From a virus, in the IMG/VR virus record IMGVR_UViG_3300009073_000022, positions 1-43,344 of that record: a DNA stretch of 43,344 nucleotides; one strand, given 5' to 3'. The notes beneath the pieces were generated by a model that saw only the letters and a program-made list of their open reading frames with translations, was not told the origin of the DNA and searched no databases. Position numbers and translations under genes: made by a program. Shown here piece after piece: positions 5,576-41,606 of the stretch. Position 1 is the first letter of the stretch. Every line of letters starts with the position of its first letter.

Positions 5576-5586
5576 ACGATAAGATG

Positions 5587-5610
5587 TTAGCCCACTTAAT
5601 TGTGGGCTAA
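5587..5610. terminator. Bidirectional hairpin terminator between uvsX and the topoisomerase gene
   Basis: The arms TTAGCCCAC and GTGGGCTAA form a perfect 9-bp stem with a 6-base loop. It sits between the stops of two convergent genes and would serve both strands. T-tracts on either side are weak. Confidence 0.75.
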
Positions 5611-5617
5611 TTAATGA

Positions 5618-7685: not shown

Positions 7686-7734
7686 TAGTAAACTAACAGT
7701 ATTGAAAAATGATAACAATGGGAATTTATCAAAA

Positions 7735-17694: not shown

Positions 17695-17716
17695 AATGTG
17701 ATGTGTGTGGTATAAT
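17687..17716 (+). promoter_or_regulatory. Sigma70-type promoter
   Basis: TTGATT and a perfect TATAAT are spaced by 18 bases. The -35 overlaps the last codons of uvsW. It would drive the genes from 17743, including the first DnaE-like half. Confidence 0.65.
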
Positions 17717-17742
17717 TCTTTTAACTACAAAGAGAATTAAAT

Positions 17743-18231
17743 ATGCTGGTATTTCAAGAATCACAGGCAGTAACAATGATAGATAATATCCGTCCTATTA
17801 TTATGGAAGAATATTTTTGGGTCATGGATTTAGATATGAAAGATTTCATAATTACACCATTAAATGTCATTGAAGCAACTACAGCACCGTCAATAGAATT
17901 GTTAATAGATGGTTTTAATTTTATTGTACCAGCAACATGGAATATATTAATTGTAGATCCAGAAACATCACAGCTTGATATATCAGAAGTAGGAGCGGTG
18001 TTGGGGAAACAATTTCATTGCTTTTGTTATGGTTTTAATAACTCAATGGTTGAAATGCACGTAATAGAAGCAGTGGATTATCATGCATCTGAAACATCGT
18101 TCTCTCCATCGATGAGTAAAAGTCATATGCTTTGTCATCCAATAGATCAAGATCGATGGATTAATTTATCTCCAGCCGATTCATATAACAAACATTTTAG
18201 AAACACATTATTATCAGGAGATTTTGTATGA
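17743..18231 (+). CDS. Hypothetical protein after uvsW
   Basis: Not recognised. The 162-residue protein is soluble, mixed alpha/beta, with hydrophobic strands (FWVMDLDMKDFIITPLNV, FIVPATWNILIVD) and a Cys/His-rich middle (QFHCFCYGF, MLCHPIDQDRW). The layout recalls a sandwich or barrel. The tryptophan and cysteine residues could bind a metal but no known motif is complete. It has its own sigma70-type promoter and an AGAGAA ribosome site. Its stop overlaps the start of the next gene (ATGA-type overlap), and the operon runs on into the DnaE-like half. Confidence 0.65.
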   Translation: MLVFQESQAVTMIDNIRPIIMEEYFWVMDLDMKDFIITPLNVIEATTAPSIELLIDGFNFIVPATWNILIVDPETSQLDISEVGAVLGKQFHCFCYGFNNSMVEMHVIEAVDYHASETSFSPSMSKSHMLCHPIDQDRWINLSPADSYNKHFRNTLLSGDFV

Positions 18232-20053: not shown

Positions 20054-20082
20054 TTGACATTAAATATACTCACCAGTATAAT
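20054..20082 (+). promoter_or_regulatory. Perfect consensus sigma70 promoter for gene 44
   Basis: TTGACA and TATAAT are separated by exactly 17 bases, an ideal sigma70 promoter. It lies in the gap before gene 44, giving a start near 20089 and a short leader. Confidence 0.9.
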
Positions 20083-20106
20083 TCAATGATTTACTGGTGA
20101 GTGTTC

Positions 20107-22514: not shown

Positions 22515-22522
22515 TATAAATA
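22515..22522 (+). promoter_or_regulatory. T4-type late promoter (TATAAATA)
   Basis: A perfect late octamer, 45 bases before the tail-fibre-like gene at 22567, in the gap after the replication operon. Confidence 0.8.
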
Positions 22523-22566
22523 AGAGTATTGAAATCAAGTAAAAGAACTCTTATGGGTAGAAATTA

Positions 22567-24651
22567 ATGACAATTTATTCAATTACATCAACAGATGCAT
22601 CAAAAACCATTGTAGTCAATGCAGGAACAACTAATGGTCCTGTTGTTGCTCCAGCCAATATCGATACGGATCTGATTCTATATGGACAAGGTTCTTTCAA
22701 TTGGGGTCAAGGAATTGAACAAAACTTGTTCAGAATCATGGAATCATTTGCTAGTCCAGCAAAAAATCCACTTCAACCAGACGAAGATCAAGTACCAGAT
22801 CCAGAACCAGTTGCCGCCAATCCAGATTTATATGGAATAAAAAATCCAGTTATAGGACAAACATGGTTTAATAAATCAAACAAACGTTTATACGTATGTA
22901 CCATCGCCGCCACAGAAACGGAAGATGCTGTGTGGAAATTAGATGGTGAAGGACGATTTTTAGATTTAAAGGGTGGTGAATTATCCGGAAATGTAAAAAT
23001 TATTCGACCGGCTGGTAATGGTGGAACTGGAATAGAATTAATTAGTAAAGATGAATTATCTCCAATGTATGTTCAATTTGAAGATTTATCTGCTGTTAAA
23101 GGGCGATTGTTTGTTGAGCAAGAAGCGGGTACGGGAGTAGATACGCTAAAATTTGAAAAACGTGTTAATGAAACAATTAAAAACTCTATACACATGCACG
23201 ATGGATATATCGAAACTCACGCCACTCAAGGTAAGATACGAACTCCATCCACCATAGCATCTGATACAGGCCAAACACTAGCAACCAAAAATTATGTTGA
23301 TTTTGAAATAGCAGCTAATGGATTTGATGATGGTATATTTGAAGATGATATTACAGTATCTAAACCGAATGCTGGATTTTATGCAAAATCAACTAATAAC
23401 ACAACAGATCCAAAATTTGTATTAGCAGATTCGTCTGGTAACAAAGGAAAATTTTGGTTGAGTCAAGAAGGAACTGCTGATGTTTTAGTTCTTAGTAAAG
23501 GTATTTTTAATGGTGCAGAGGTTACAGGAACCACACAAAATGAAATTAGAATGACTGATACTGGTGTAGATTTTACTAAAAATATTACATTAAAAAATGC
23601 ATTTCCTGTTATGACAATAGAATCAACAAGTCCAACATCTGGATCTATTTTATACTTTAAAGATAATCAAGCTGTGAAAGCTGAATTATCAATTTTACCA
23701 ATAAATGGATCTGGCAGTATTGATGATTTAGTTTTACAGAAAAAAGCTGGATCTAATATTTTAAGTGAACTTAGAATGAAAGATGGATTGACAACTATGA
23801 GTCAACCATTTGAAGTACTAAAATCAGATGATATTATTAGATTAAACCCAGCAGTAGATAGTGCAAATGTCTCATTAAGTTCAAATGCAGGGGCACGACT
23901 TGCTAAGTTTGGTTTAAATTCAGATGATTCAGCAGTGATTGAATACACTTCAGGCACTACTGATTCAAGAGTTACATTAGAGCAAAATGGCACAGTTACC
24001 ATTACAAAACCTAGAGCCACAGATCATGCCGATGTCGAAGTAACCGAAGATGAAAGACTAATAACTAAAAAATATGCTGATAGTAGGGGTTATATAGGTA
24101 TAGGTAGAAATGTAAGCCCTAATAGGCTAGCATTAGAGAAAAATGGTACGTCTTGGAGAACTTCATCCAATTTTGTTGACATTCCAACTTCAACTGCAAA
24201 TCTTAATTCGTTCCCTACTAATGGAACTAGTAATGCAGTAAATAAAACATATAGTACGGTAGCTGATATAAAAACATCTGGTTTAGCAACTGTATTAATT
24301 CGAATATCTTTTAGTTATGCATTAAGAGTAGCAGGCGGCGGTGAAGGGTCTAGTGGATTTTTTACATTTGCACCAGTGGATATACAATATCGAAGTTCTG
24401 CTGTTCCAGTAGGTGCATGGACAGATTTAGTATTGCCGGGTATTCCTATGGATACTTATCAGAATGTATATTCTGGTCAATATTTCGCTACAACCACGGC
24501 CCAAATAAACGCAGCTCAATCGGAAATAGAATTTAGATTCGGTAATACATCAAATGAATTTGTATTTGGTCCTATCAATAGAACAGGCACCATAGTTGAA
24601 AAATTTGATGCTGTTCTTATAGATAATGCAACATTTAACGTGGAATATTAA
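22567..24651 (+). CDS. Tail-fibre-like structural protein (694 residues)
   Basis: A long beta-rich protein under a perfect late promoter. The amino domain (about residues 1-140) carries the T4-like fibre blocks LILYGQGSFNWGQGIEQNLFRIMESFA and VIGQTWFNKSNKRLYVC. The same blocks occur in the gene at 24882. Repeats follow: a LDLKGGELSGNVKI block, ATKNYVDFEIAANGFDDG, then mixed Gly/Ser/Asn-rich stretches, and a second TKKYADSRGYIGIG. The last third has the unrelated beta-rich ending expected of a receptor-binding tip. I infer a virion fibre or fibre-like protein. Which fibre is not clear; it lies inside a replication region rather than with other tail genes. Confidence 0.7.
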   Translation: MTIYSITSTDASKTIVVNAGTTNGPVVAPANIDTDLILYGQGSFNWGQGIEQNLFRIMESFASPAKNPLQPDEDQVPDPEPVAANPDLYGIKNPVIGQTWFNKSNKRLYVCTIAATETEDAVWKLDGEGRFLDLKGGELSGNVKIIRPAGNGGTGIELISKDELSPMYVQFEDLSAVKGRLFVEQEAGTGVDTLKFEKRVNETIKNSIHMHDGYIETHATQGKIRTPSTIASDTGQTLATKNYVDFEIAANGFDDGIFEDDITVSKPNAGFYAKSTNNTTDPKFVLADSSGNKGKFWLSQEGTADVLVLSKGIFNGAEVTGTTQNEIRMTDTGVDFTKNITLKNAFPVMTIESTSPTSGSILYFKDNQAVKAELSILPINGSGSIDDLVLQKKAGSNILSELRMKDGLTTMSQPFEVLKSDDIIRLNPAVDSANVSLSSNAGARLAKFGLNSDDSAVIEYTSGTTDSRVTLEQNGTVTITKPRATDHADVEVTEDERLITKKYADSRGYIGIGRNVSPNRLALEKNGTSWRTSSNFVDIPTSTANLNSFPTNGTSNAVNKTYSTVADIKTSGLATVLIRISFSYALRVAGGGEGSSGFFTFAPVDIQYRSSAVPVGAWTDLVLPGIPMDTYQNVYSGQYFATTTAQINAAQSEIEFRFGNTSNEFVFGPINRTGTIVEKFDAVLIDNATFNVEY

Positions 24652-28231: not shown

Positions 28232-28260
28232 TTGATTTATTGACTTAGTTATCATATTAT
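28232..28260 (+). promoter_or_regulatory. Sigma70-type promoter
   Basis: TTGATT and TATTAT are 17 bases apart in the gap before the gene at 28287. A second -10-like TATAAT overlaps three bases further on. Confidence 0.6.
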
Positions 28261-28286
28261 AATCACTTGACCATCTGGAGAGTGAT

Positions 28287-28589
28287 ATGCACGAAGAAGA
28301 AATTAATGAAGAACACGAATCTAAAGATTCTTTATTAAAAGAAGCAGCCTCTCAAGAATTAATTGCTCTCCTAGAATCAGGAAAAAATCTCAAAACTGAA
28401 ATAGAAGAATCATCCACTCGAACAAAAAAATCATATCTTCAAAAAAAGTTAGATAAAATTAATACTCAAGCTATCCAAATGATAGTGGCAATGGAAACAT
28501 TAGATGATATTGAACAGCGCAAAGCTGAATCTGATGTAGATATAGATGAAGAAGCAATACAAAAATCACTTGATGGAGTAAGTCAATGA
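28287..28589 (+). CDS. Small coiled-coil hypothetical protein
   Basis: Not recognised. The 100-residue acidic protein is almost all predicted helix: LLKEAASQELIALLESGKNLKTEIE, TKKSYLQKKLDKINTQAIQMIVAMETL. It has a GGAGAG ribosome site and its own promoter. It overlaps the next gene by four bases, so it belongs to an operon of small proteins ending with a P-loop kinase. Confidence 0.65.
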   Translation: MHEEEINEEHESKDSLLKEAASQELIALLESGKNLKTEIEESSTRTKKSYLQKKLDKINTQAIQMIVAMETLDDIEQRKAESDVDIDEEAIQKSLDGVSQ

Positions 28590-29942: not shown

Positions 29943-29970
29943 ACAATCTACTTGTTATGTAGTATCAAAG

Positions 29971-29995
29971 GGCGACTTTATTGGTCGCCTTTTTT
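29971..29995 (+). terminator. Rho-independent terminator
   Basis: GGCGAC and GTCGCC form a 6-bp GC-rich stem with a 7-base loop, followed by TTTTTT and more T. A textbook terminator. Confidence 0.9.
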
Positions 29996-31428: not shown

Positions 31429-31460
31429 GCAGTAAGGGATAACCCATGTAGTAGTGCTGG

Positions 31461-31495
31461 AAGGGGCTGGAATCATTGATTCTCAGTCCCTTTTG
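31461..31495 (+). terminator. Rho-independent terminator after the MoxR gene
   Basis: AAGGGGCTG pairs with CAGTCCCTT (one G-U), and inside it GAATCA pairs with TGATTC around a one-base centre, so the whole element is an almost continuous long stem. It is followed by a T-rich tail. Confidence 0.85.
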
Positions 31496-31517
31496 GTTTA
31501 TGATACTTGAAACACAC

Positions 31518-37510: not shown

Positions 37511-38482
37511 ATGCCATTAGACAACAACGTTACTTTCTTCACCGGAACTTCAAATCCAGAACTAGCATTAAAAATAATTAAACAATTACCACTGCCAGCA
37601 GAATTAGGCAAAATGAGTTTATCAAAATTCTCTGATGGAGAATTAAGTTGTAAAATAGAAGAAAACGTTAGAGGCTCAAACGCTTATATAATTCAATCAA
37701 CCTGTGCTCCAGCAAACGATTCAATCATGGAGATAATGGTTATTGCAGACGCTCTATTCAGAGCATCAGTTAATAGCATTACATTAGTAGTTCCTTATTG
37801 GGGATACGCAAGACAGGATCGCAGACCACATCGAGAACGAACTGCCATATCATCTAAGATGGTCGCAACAATGATGGCATCAATTCCCTGCATCACTCAA
37901 ATTATTATTATGGATATCCACTCTGATCAACAGGGTGGATTTTTCGTTTGGCCGATGATCGATGTTCATGCCACAACTATTTTTGTAGACGATATTAAAC
38001 GTCGATATTCATTGGCAGAGCAGAAAAAAATAACATTCGTATCTCCTGATATTGGTGGAGTTGTTAGAAATAGAAAAGCAGCAAAAAAATTAAATGCAGA
38101 GTTGGCTATTATTGATAAACGCCGACCTAAAGAAAATGTAGCAGAAGTGATGAACATCATAGGTGATATAGACGGTCGCCATTGCGTTCTGCTGGACGAT
38201 ATGATTGATACGGCTGGCACAGCATCTAAAGCAGCAGCAGCGCTTAAACAAGCTGGTGCTCTCAGTGTCGTTATGTATGCTACACATCCTGTATTGTCTG
38301 GTTCTGGTTATGAGACAATTGATCAATCTGGCATGGATAAATTAATTGTTACCGATACAATTCCTTTGCGACCTGATCGAATTTGTGATAAGATCGAGGT
38401 TCTTTCGGTAGCGGAATTAATGGCAAAGACTATTAGCAGAATCCTACTGAATGGTTCAGTGGGAGAACTTGATGAAAGTTAG
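37511..38482 (+). CDS. prs: Ribose-phosphate pyrophosphokinase (PRPP synthetase)
   Basis: Prs makes PRPP from ribose-5-phosphate and ATP, the precursor for purine, pyrimidine and NAD synthesis. The 323-residue protein aligns with class I enzymes throughout: KFSDGE, the VVPYWGYARQDRRP catalytic loop, MDIHSDQQGGFF, VSPDIGGVVRNRKAAK and the PRPP-binding DDMIDTAGT at 229-237. I chose the ATG at 37511; the longer frame from 37475 would start inside the hairpin. In known phages prs is usually paired with nadV for NAD salvage; no nadV is in the window. A weak GAGAAAA site precedes the start. The next gene starts inside its last codons. Confidence 0.96.
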   Translation: MPLDNNVTFFTGTSNPELALKIIKQLPLPAELGKMSLSKFSDGELSCKIEENVRGSNAYIIQSTCAPANDSIMEIMVIADALFRASVNSITLVVPYWGYARQDRRPHRERTAISSKMVATMMASIPCITQIIIMDIHSDQQGGFFVWPMIDVHATTIFVDDIKRRYSLAEQKKITFVSPDIGGVVRNRKAAKKLNAELAIIDKRRPKENVAEVMNIIGDIDGRHCVLLDDMIDTAGTASKAAAALKQAGALSVVMYATHPVLSGSGYETIDQSGMDKLIVTDTIPLRPDRICDKIEVLSVAELMAKTISRILLNGSVGELDES

Positions 38483-40378: not shown

Positions 40379-40386
40379 TATAAATA
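40379..40386 (+). promoter_or_regulatory. T4-type late promoter (TATAAATA)
   Basis: A perfect late octamer followed by AAAG, 26 bases before the gene at 40412. Confidence 0.75.
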
Positions 40387-40411: not shown

Positions 40412-40798
40412 ATGAATTTAATTAAAGTAATAAATGACAATATGAAGCTAAATGCTGAACTCGATGCCGAAATCGAAGCTGATAATGAGCGCGAGCGTGA
40501 GCAAGAAGCAAATATAGCAGCATCATTTCCGTTAATGAATTATTTAAGTGACGAAGATGAAGACGAACCAGAAGAAGTTCTTGGTGAATTCTTTGGTTTT
40601 GATTTTGGTCGTGCAAAGAAGCGGAAGCAAAAAGCATTGGAATATGCTCGCTCTAAAGGAAAAAGCGGTAGAGTGAATAAGAATAAATTTAATGATGAAT
40701 ATATTACAGGCGGCGATCAAGCTCGTAAAGATACTGAAAAAAAGATAAAAAAGGATATTGCAGCCGAACAGAATGCATTAAAACAAAAAAAGAACTAA
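40412..40798 (+). CDS. Charged late protein, possible head-core protein
   Basis: Not recognised. The 128-residue protein has a helical, acidic front (LNAELDAEIEADNERERE) and a Lys-rich back (FGRAKKRKQKALEYARSKGKSGR, then KKIKKDIAAEQNALKQKKN). Leu-Asp-Ala-Glu and Leu-Gly-Glu offer possible Leu-x-(x)-Glu sites, only one of which (Leu-Gly-Glu, near residue 59) fits the T4 prohead protease rule. A perfect late promoter drives it. A scaffolding or internal head role would suit the strongly charged, helical sequence but is not shown. Confidence 0.55.
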   Translation: MNLIKVINDNMKLNAELDAEIEADNEREREQEANIAASFPLMNYLSDEDEDEPEEVLGEFFGFDFGRAKKRKQKALEYARSKGKSGRVNKNKFNDEYITGGDQARKDTEKKIKKDIAAEQNALKQKKN

Positions 40799-40813
40799 GT
40801 ACACAATTTAAAT

Positions 40814-40874
40814 GGAGTGCTTGAGAAAGCACCCTTTAAGTGACCTACTCAAGTACTCCCTAATTCTCAGGGAG
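40814..40874 (+). promoter_or_regulatory. Structured leader with two competing hairpins over the ribosome site
   Basis: Hairpin A: GGAGTGCTTGAG (40814-40825) pairs with CTCAAGTACTCC (40848-40859), 12 bp with one G-U. Hairpin B: CTCCCT (40856-40861) pairs with AGGGAG (40869-40874), 6 bp with a 7-base loop. They share 40856-40859, so only one can form. AGGGAG is the ribosome site for the ATG at 40881. A therefore frees the site and B hides it: the arrangement expected of a translational switch. Confidence 0.6.
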
Positions 40875-40880
40875 AATAAA

Positions 40881-41087
40881 ATGGAAGATAATAATTTAGA
40901 ACTATTGGAATCATGCTTAGCACGATTGCAGAAGATTGGTGCGCGTGAACCATTACCAACACAGTACTTTTTCAAAGAAGCACAGGAAATCATACGTGGT
41001 TCTGTAGATGAAGCGTATAAGGCTGGTGTGGCCGATGGAAAGTCAGGTGCAAAGAAGCCATCTGTTAGTGAGTACATTATTAAATAA
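40881..41087 (+). CDS. Small hypothetical protein behind a structured leader
   Basis: Not recognised. The 68-residue protein is one or two helices (LELLESCLARLQKIG, YFFKEAQEIIRGSVDEAYKAG) with a Gly/Lys end. I chose the ATG at 40881 because AGGGAG lies at ideal spacing. An in-frame ATG at 40812 would add 23 residues but has no ribosome site and would cover the hairpin leader. The unusual feature is upstream: the ribosome site is paired in one of two exclusive hairpins. A GC-rich structured region follows the stop. Confidence 0.55.
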   Translation: MEDNNLELLESCLARLQKIGAREPLPTQYFFKEAQEIIRGSVDEAYKAGVADGKSGAKKPSVSEYIIK

Positions 41088-41091
41088 GATT

Positions 41092-41166
41092 TTCGCGCAA
41101 ACTTAGCGCGAACGATGGGTAAGATTAACATTAACTGGTTAATCCCAACAATTATGGGGATTGTTG
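41092..41166 (+). ncRNA. Structured intergenic region, candidate non-coding RNA
   Basis: Three perfect 7-bp hairpins stand in a row: TTCGCGC/GCGCGAA (41092-41112), GATTAAC/GTTAATC (41123-41144) and CAACAAT/ATTGTTG (41146-41166). An alternative AATCCC/GGGATT pairing (41141-41146 with 41157-41162) conflicts with the second and third. No protein frame covers it and no T-loop sequence supports a tRNA. A riboswitch-like or small regulatory RNA is possible; it is upstream of the gene at 41221. Confidence 0.45.
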
Positions 41167-41184
41167 AGAATCGGAGCCGAGGGA

Positions 41185-41214
41185 TTGAGGGGGCATCTGA
41201 TATTGTGTTAGAAT
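41185..41214 (+). promoter_or_regulatory. Sigma70-type promoter candidate
   Basis: TTGAGG and TAGAAT are 18 bases apart. The predicted start falls at about the ATG of the next gene (41221), which has no ribosome site. Confidence 0.4.
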
Positions 41215-41220
41215 AGTTGT

Positions 41221-41550: not shown

Positions 41551-41579
41551 TTGATTAACGATTACCTTTTCTATATTAT
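41551..41579 (+). promoter_or_regulatory. Sigma70-type promoter for guaC
   Basis: TTGATT and TATTAT are 17 bases apart. ATTACCTTT in the spacer and AAAGGTAAT before the start codon form a 9-bp inverted repeat that brackets the -10 box; only the right half is in the mRNA. Confidence 0.65.
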
Positions 41580-41606
41580 CTTCAATTAACATAAAGGTAA
41601 TAGAGA

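Follow-up and report, generated by a model that had tools for sequence, protein, structure and literature searches.

The window analysed here, a virus record of 43,344 bases, carries T4-type genes for a ssDNA-binding protein, a topoisomerase large subunit, rIIA, rIIB, a clamp loader, an ATP-dependent DNA ligase, a PRPP synthetase and an IMPDH-like dehydrogenase. An exact scan for TATAAATA, which is named as the T4 late promoter (PMC3014915), located the motif four times on the plus strand (2757, 22515, 33548 and 40379), each time 5' of a gene, and not at all on the minus strand of the window. The copy at 40379 is the nearest late promoter able to transcribe the gene for a 68-residue protein. 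The leader of this gene (40881-41087) is located 3' of the ligase gene and is preceded by a gene of 128 residues (40412-40798). The stop codon of the 128-residue gene occupies 40796-40798, leaving a stop-to-start gap of 82 bases. The features of the locus are as follows, L002 being a related contig:

40379-40386, plus strand: exact T4-type late promoter motif TATAAATA, identified by motif scan, preceding the upstream 128-residue gene.
40412-40798, plus strand: upstream gene of 128 residues, syntenic with the 221-residue gene of L002, with an alignable N-terminus.
40806-40841, plus strand: hairpin D with its extension (core 40817-40822 with 40827-40832, GAGA loop; extension 40814-40815 with 40833-40834 and 40806-40812 with 40835-40841), absent from the initial annotation.
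40814-40859, plus strand: hairpin A, 40814-40825 with 40848-40859, 12 contiguous pairs including one G-U, loop of 22.
40856-40874, plus strand: hairpin B, 40856-40861 (CUCCCU) with 40869-40874 (AGGGAG), six Watson-Crick pairs, loop of 7.
40863-40877, plus strand: hairpin C, 40863-40868 with 40872-40877, six pairs, loop AGG, also absent from the initial annotation.
40869-40874, plus strand: ribosome (Shine-Dalgarno) site AGGGAG, 6 bases 5' of ATG 40881.
40881-41087, plus strand: gene for the 68-residue protein; L002:4582-4812 holds a homologue, and the gene order agrees.

Hairpins A (12 bp) and B (6 bp, including AGGGAG) were present as the initial annotation had described them, in both coordinates and pairing. 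The accompanying claim that only one of the two can form was borne out, since 40856-40859 is common to both and their coexistence is impossible. The 3' arm of B is the ribosome site itself. With A in place, hairpin C also forms and occupies half of the ribosome site in its stem. In the presence of B, A gives way to hairpin D, built from the 5' arm of A and the sequence immediately 3' of the upstream stop. RNA folding predicted two exclusive states of near-equal energy, with A and C (state 1) at -25.0 kcal/mol and B and D (state 2) at -24.3 kcal/mol. Four parameter sets were run at 10-42 C, and both states were populated in all 12 of these settings, with P(A) ranging from 0.22 to 0.77. In longer transcripts (401-829 bases), P(A) was 0.47-0.62, and it was 0.22-0.58 when the pairing span was limited. 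In a series of growing transcripts, D was the best fold until the 3' arm of A was complete.

The leader at 40799-40880 folds to -25.0 kcal/mol, compared with a shuffle mean of -13.3 kcal/mol (sd 2.9), and none of 2000 dinucleotide shuffles was as stable. The fold of 40780-40930 had a z of -3.9. Most of the stability of the leader is carried by A alone, with a stem of -16.9 kcal/mol. When the whole 43 kb was shuffled 30 times, two of the shuffles reached this value; in the real window, six plus-strand stems reach it. Of 5000 shuffled leaders, 19% had some six-pair stem over AGGGAG and 0.3% had one that matched B in strength. When A was held fixed and the 9-base spacer alone was shuffled, a stem as strong as B arose in 8% of 5000 sequences. 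Hairpin B alone is thus much less special, and by itself is weak evidence. The between/within state ratio was matched by none of 300 shuffles and by none of 300 random window positions; on the between-state distance alone, the matches numbered 0-1 among the 300 shuffles and 4-6 among the 300 random positions. As modelled, the leader RNA is a real and unusually balanced structure, of ordinary predicted strength and of a known general kind.

The predicted cost of freeing AGGGAG was 4.1 kcal/mol with A and C versus 8.3 kcal/mol with D and B, the site being paired in both states, weakly in the former and strongly in the latter. Because A takes up 40856-40861, the strand that otherwise pairs with the ribosome site, it would act as an anti-sequestering hairpin that opposes burial. 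In transcripts starting at 40808 or 40812, A was predicted to form at ~100% with C, at an opening cost of 4.0 kcal/mol; in those starting between 40820 and 40856, where the 5' arm of A is lost, B was predicted at ~100%, at ~8.3 kcal/mol. Masking of 40799-40807 lowered the ensemble-average cost slightly, from about 4.7 to 4.0 kcal/mol. The opening cost of the full leader was 4.9 kcal/mol, the median of a hand list of 41 leaders (21 of the 40 others cost more) that omits some ORFs, among them those with starts at 7702, 14452, 18733, 24626, 24876 and 38451, and also two minus-strand genes. Shuffles of the leader itself averaged 7.7 kcal/mol to open, placing the real sequence at 95 of 100, on the more open side. 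Of the 41 hand-listed leaders, six ranked no higher than 5 among 100 shuffles, against an expectation of about 2. The initial annotation had proposed that the choice of hairpin would turn translation of the 68-residue protein on or off. The two exclusive states, ~4 kcal/mol apart in freeing the ribosome site, are consistent with that proposal; however, the switch is not a clean one, as the site is still paired, by C, in the state with A, and the opening cost is ordinary among leaders.

A sole homologue of the 68-residue protein was found, on one contig (L002), with 50% identity over the alignment. The gene order of this contig matches that of the window (ligase, 221-residue gene, homologue, IMPDH), and the start of the homologue aligns with ATG 40881, not with the in-frame ATG 40812. 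A direct protein search with the 68-residue protein gave no match in viral contigs, and a protein search of bacterial and archaeal genomes gave none. A search of viral contigs with the two-sequence alignment returned two loci, L099 and L100; L099 is simply the L002 contig, and L100 was rejected as a chance match inside a 590-residue protein. Neither homologue had a match in 50,697 phage records. The neighbouring genes were used as bait, namely the IMPDH-like gene (80 loci kept of 405 relatives), the ligase and the 248-residue gene. For the profile search, 121 loci were loaded and L001, the window itself, was left out; over the 120 loci, the 68-residue profile recovered one contig alone, present in five loci, with a next best E-value of 2.1. 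A DNA pattern for the arms of A led to one unrelated G+C-rich phage (L101), which was discarded.

Neither the stem of A nor that of B was found in the leader of L002, the single homologous leader. In the two-row alignment, 72.7% of the cells in the A-stem columns were paired, no better than in shuffles that redealt the 3' letters. The L002 leader instead has TATAAT with TTGCTT (three of six positions of TTGACA) 17 bases 5', an arrangement that was not seen in the window. The initial annotation expected a stem to be conserved in homologous leaders if its proposal held; as far as a sample of one relative can tell, this expectation failed. Most likely, the leader is either a lineage-specific one that couples the 68-residue gene to its upstream neighbour, or a structural hairpin.

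The upstream genes of the two genomes (window 40412-40798; L002 3846-4511) have in common the N-terminus MNxIKxIN and, ahead of a basic tail, the motif LxEFFG. The LxE of this motif resembles T4 prohead protease cleavage sites, and by analogy the 128-residue gene and its L002 counterpart may encode internal head proteins. In the two genomes alike, the stretch that follows the 68-residue gene has strong structure (window 41088-41220, -34.4 kcal/mol; L002 4813-5000, -58.2 kcal/mol), and GGGTAAGATT is present in both stretches. No Rfam match above chance was found in the stretch after the 68-residue gene.

We tentatively propose, as the favoured reading of the predicted folds though well short of an even chance, a lineage-specific two-state leader that would couple the 68-residue gene to translation of the upstream 128-residue gene. 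In state 1, A would sequester 40856-40861 and leave the weak hairpin C over the ribosome site; in state 2, D would capture the 5' arm of A, and B would close the ribosome site firmly. The likeliest selector would be translation of the upstream gene, which is co-directional and whose terminating ribosome would reach the leader structure. The upstream stop abuts the D strand 40799-40812, and A was favoured when that strand was removed. A ribosome ending at 40796-40798 would cover the 5' strand needed for D (40799-40812), masking 40799 to about 40808 given the size of its footprint. With D blocked, the RNA would be pushed to state 1, and the 68-residue gene would be translated better while the 128-residue gene is being translated. 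The computation gives the stems and their near-equal energies; that the RNA folds so in the cell, that the genes are coupled and that protein output changes is inferred.

This coupling is favoured by the population of both states, by the shift to A on masking, and by a bistability that exceeds that of shuffles and random positions. It is weakened by the absence of both stems from the homologue, the small effect of masking, the ordinary accessibility of the site and the 8% frequency of a stem like B given A. In its favour, coupling by RNA unfolding is on record, one example having a spacing of +52 (PMC12548453). Against it, the gap here is 82 bases, and the same paper states that coupling works best over short intergenic stretches and that structure immediately 3' of the upstream stop reduces it.

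Hairpin A might instead be a plain structural intergenic hairpin, with a role in mRNA stability, end protection or processing, in which case its overlap with B would be incidental and downstream translation constitutive and moderate. We rate this on a par with the coupling, short of an even chance: most of the stability resides in A, stems like B arise fairly often once A is fixed, the site costs no more to open than in the median leader of the phage and there is no conservation, but two clearly separated states are rarer than expected by chance, and in one of them a full six-pair stem closes the ribosome site. A was rejected as a transcription terminator, since the plus strand has no T run 3' of it; the minus strand offers a weakly terminator-like site, but no likely minus-strand gene was seen nearby, the ORFs listed there all overlapping plus-strand genes. 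Alternatively, A or D could serve as an operator at which an RNA-binding protein of the phage lowers or raises translation, in the manner of T4 genes 32 and 43. A is a stable, isolated hairpin adjoining the ribosome site, and T4 uses operators of RNA-binding proteins just 5' of ribosome sites (PMC3014915); such an operator is nevertheless quite unlikely here, the leader sequence having only short, chance-level matches elsewhere in the window or the relative.

Two other selectors suggested in the initial annotation found little support. ATG 40812 is in frame with ATG 40881, as stated there, and the frame is open, so that translation from it could give a leader peptide of 23 codons that opens A as in a classical attenuator, or a 91-residue protein. 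No ribosome site lies 5' of this ATG, however, and the 23-residue extension has no counterpart in L002. Furthermore, because opening A strengthens B, translation from ATG 40812 would repress and switch the gene off, and we regard this explanation as very improbable. A metabolite-binding riboswitch is hardly credible: the two-state arrangement is like that of riboswitch expression platforms, but there is no conserved aptamer, Rfam gave no match over the whole window at the gathering threshold, and around the leader at E ≤ 10 the only match was a chance lncRNA on the other strand. Read-through occlusion of the T4 style, with a promoter inside the hairpin, a free site in short transcripts and silenced long ones, is improbable at this leader, even though the architecture is enriched in this phage and its relative. 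No plus-strand promoter was found in the leader (40799-40860) by sigma-70-like and TATAAATA scans; a start between about 40862 and 40869 would be needed, and one within 40820-40856 would bury the ribosome site deeper.

The enrichment was seen in a set of 50 genes whose starts have a promoter-like site nearby (21 in the window and 29 in the relative). In seven of these, at p ≤ 0.05, the 40 bases 5' of the predicted start point raised the opening cost of the ribosome site relative to shuffles (window 2/21; relative 5/29), an excess with a Fisher p of 5e-5 for a test that was devised after the window examples had been seen, so that the window half is partly post hoc, that used loose sigma-70 promoter calls, and in which one of the five relative cases (L104 2008) had been seen beforehand. 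The clear cases in the window were 20107 (clamp loader), with TTGACA-17-TATAAT within a 13-pair stem, and 22567 (TATAAATA); those in the relative were L103 13936, L103 2169 (minus strand), L103 3014 and L104 2008. For the IMPDH-like gene, occlusion was supported in the relative (p = 0.010) and weak in the window (p = 0.24). Hairpins with the ribosome site in the 3' arm and a promoter (TATAAT or TATAAATA) in the 5' arm or loop were located as follows:

Window, 20066-20104 (gene 20101/20107).
Window, 22515-22567.
Window, 17711-17743.
Window, 28255-28287.
Window, 41562-41602.
Relative, L103 13880-13936.
Relative, L103 2169, minus strand.
Relative, L103 3014.
Relative, L104 1955-2008.

By this model, the ribosome site would be accessible on short transcripts and shut on long ones, the arrangement of T4 e and I-TevI. 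T4-style hiding of the ribosome site, as predicted from folding, recurs in this phage and its relative, but not at the present leader. The excess of promoter-spanning hairpins is shared by two uncultured T4-like phages, extends to sigma-70-like promoters, and may be the more useful lead.

The start of the 248-residue ORF is probably at 38472, where its homologue (L002:1929) begins. A 10-pair hairpin (window 38442-38464) lies over the likely ribosome site of this ORF, and the L002 homologue has a stem of other sequence with TATAAT at its base. Strong terminator-like intergenic hairpins were observed in the window at 5586-5611 (between convergent genes), 29967-29993 and 31456-31497.

In ermC-type translation attenuators, 1:2 versus 2:3 segment pairing buries or frees the ribosome site. 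The present leader is similar in that alternating segment pairing is predicted to govern burial of the site; it differs in having no evident leader peptide, and in that opening of 1:2 would repress, not activate. The available text of PMC3014915, PMC2988022 and PMC12548453 does not describe this leader. Read-through occlusion of the ribosome site is known for the T4 genes e, soc, 49 and I-TevI (PMC3014915, PMC2988022), and the leader resembles these in belonging to a T4-like phage and in having the ribosome site of the downstream gene paired in long transcripts. In the T4 cases described there, use of a late promoter leaves the 5' arm out of the transcript, and there is one stable inhibitory hairpin; the present leader lacks a promoter of this kind, and its inhibitory hairpin faces competition from a second. 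In seg43 of Aeromonas phage 25, a hairpin lies just 5' of the ribosome site and does not cover it (PMC2988022). That leader is alike in having a very stable hairpin a few bases 5' of the ribosome site, and unlike in that the available text describes no competing structure. Translational coupling by RNA unfolding, as for rpmI-rplT at +52 and f1 VII-IX (PMC12548453), likewise involves a downstream ribosome site in structure and a co-directional neighbour that ends upstream; here, by contrast, the ribosome would act at a distance, removing the competitor D, and not by melting the inhibitory stem. It is unlikely that the leader represents a new arrangement of phage translational switch, in which a strong anti-sequestering hairpin and a rearranged 5' hairpin would be balanced within 1 kcal/mol and ribosomes ending one late gene would set translation of the next, 82 bases away. 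Leader RNA control is known from T4 and little mapped elsewhere in that phage group, and, if this leader does switch, it would offer a compact example from nature of coupling that works by removing a competitor hairpin.
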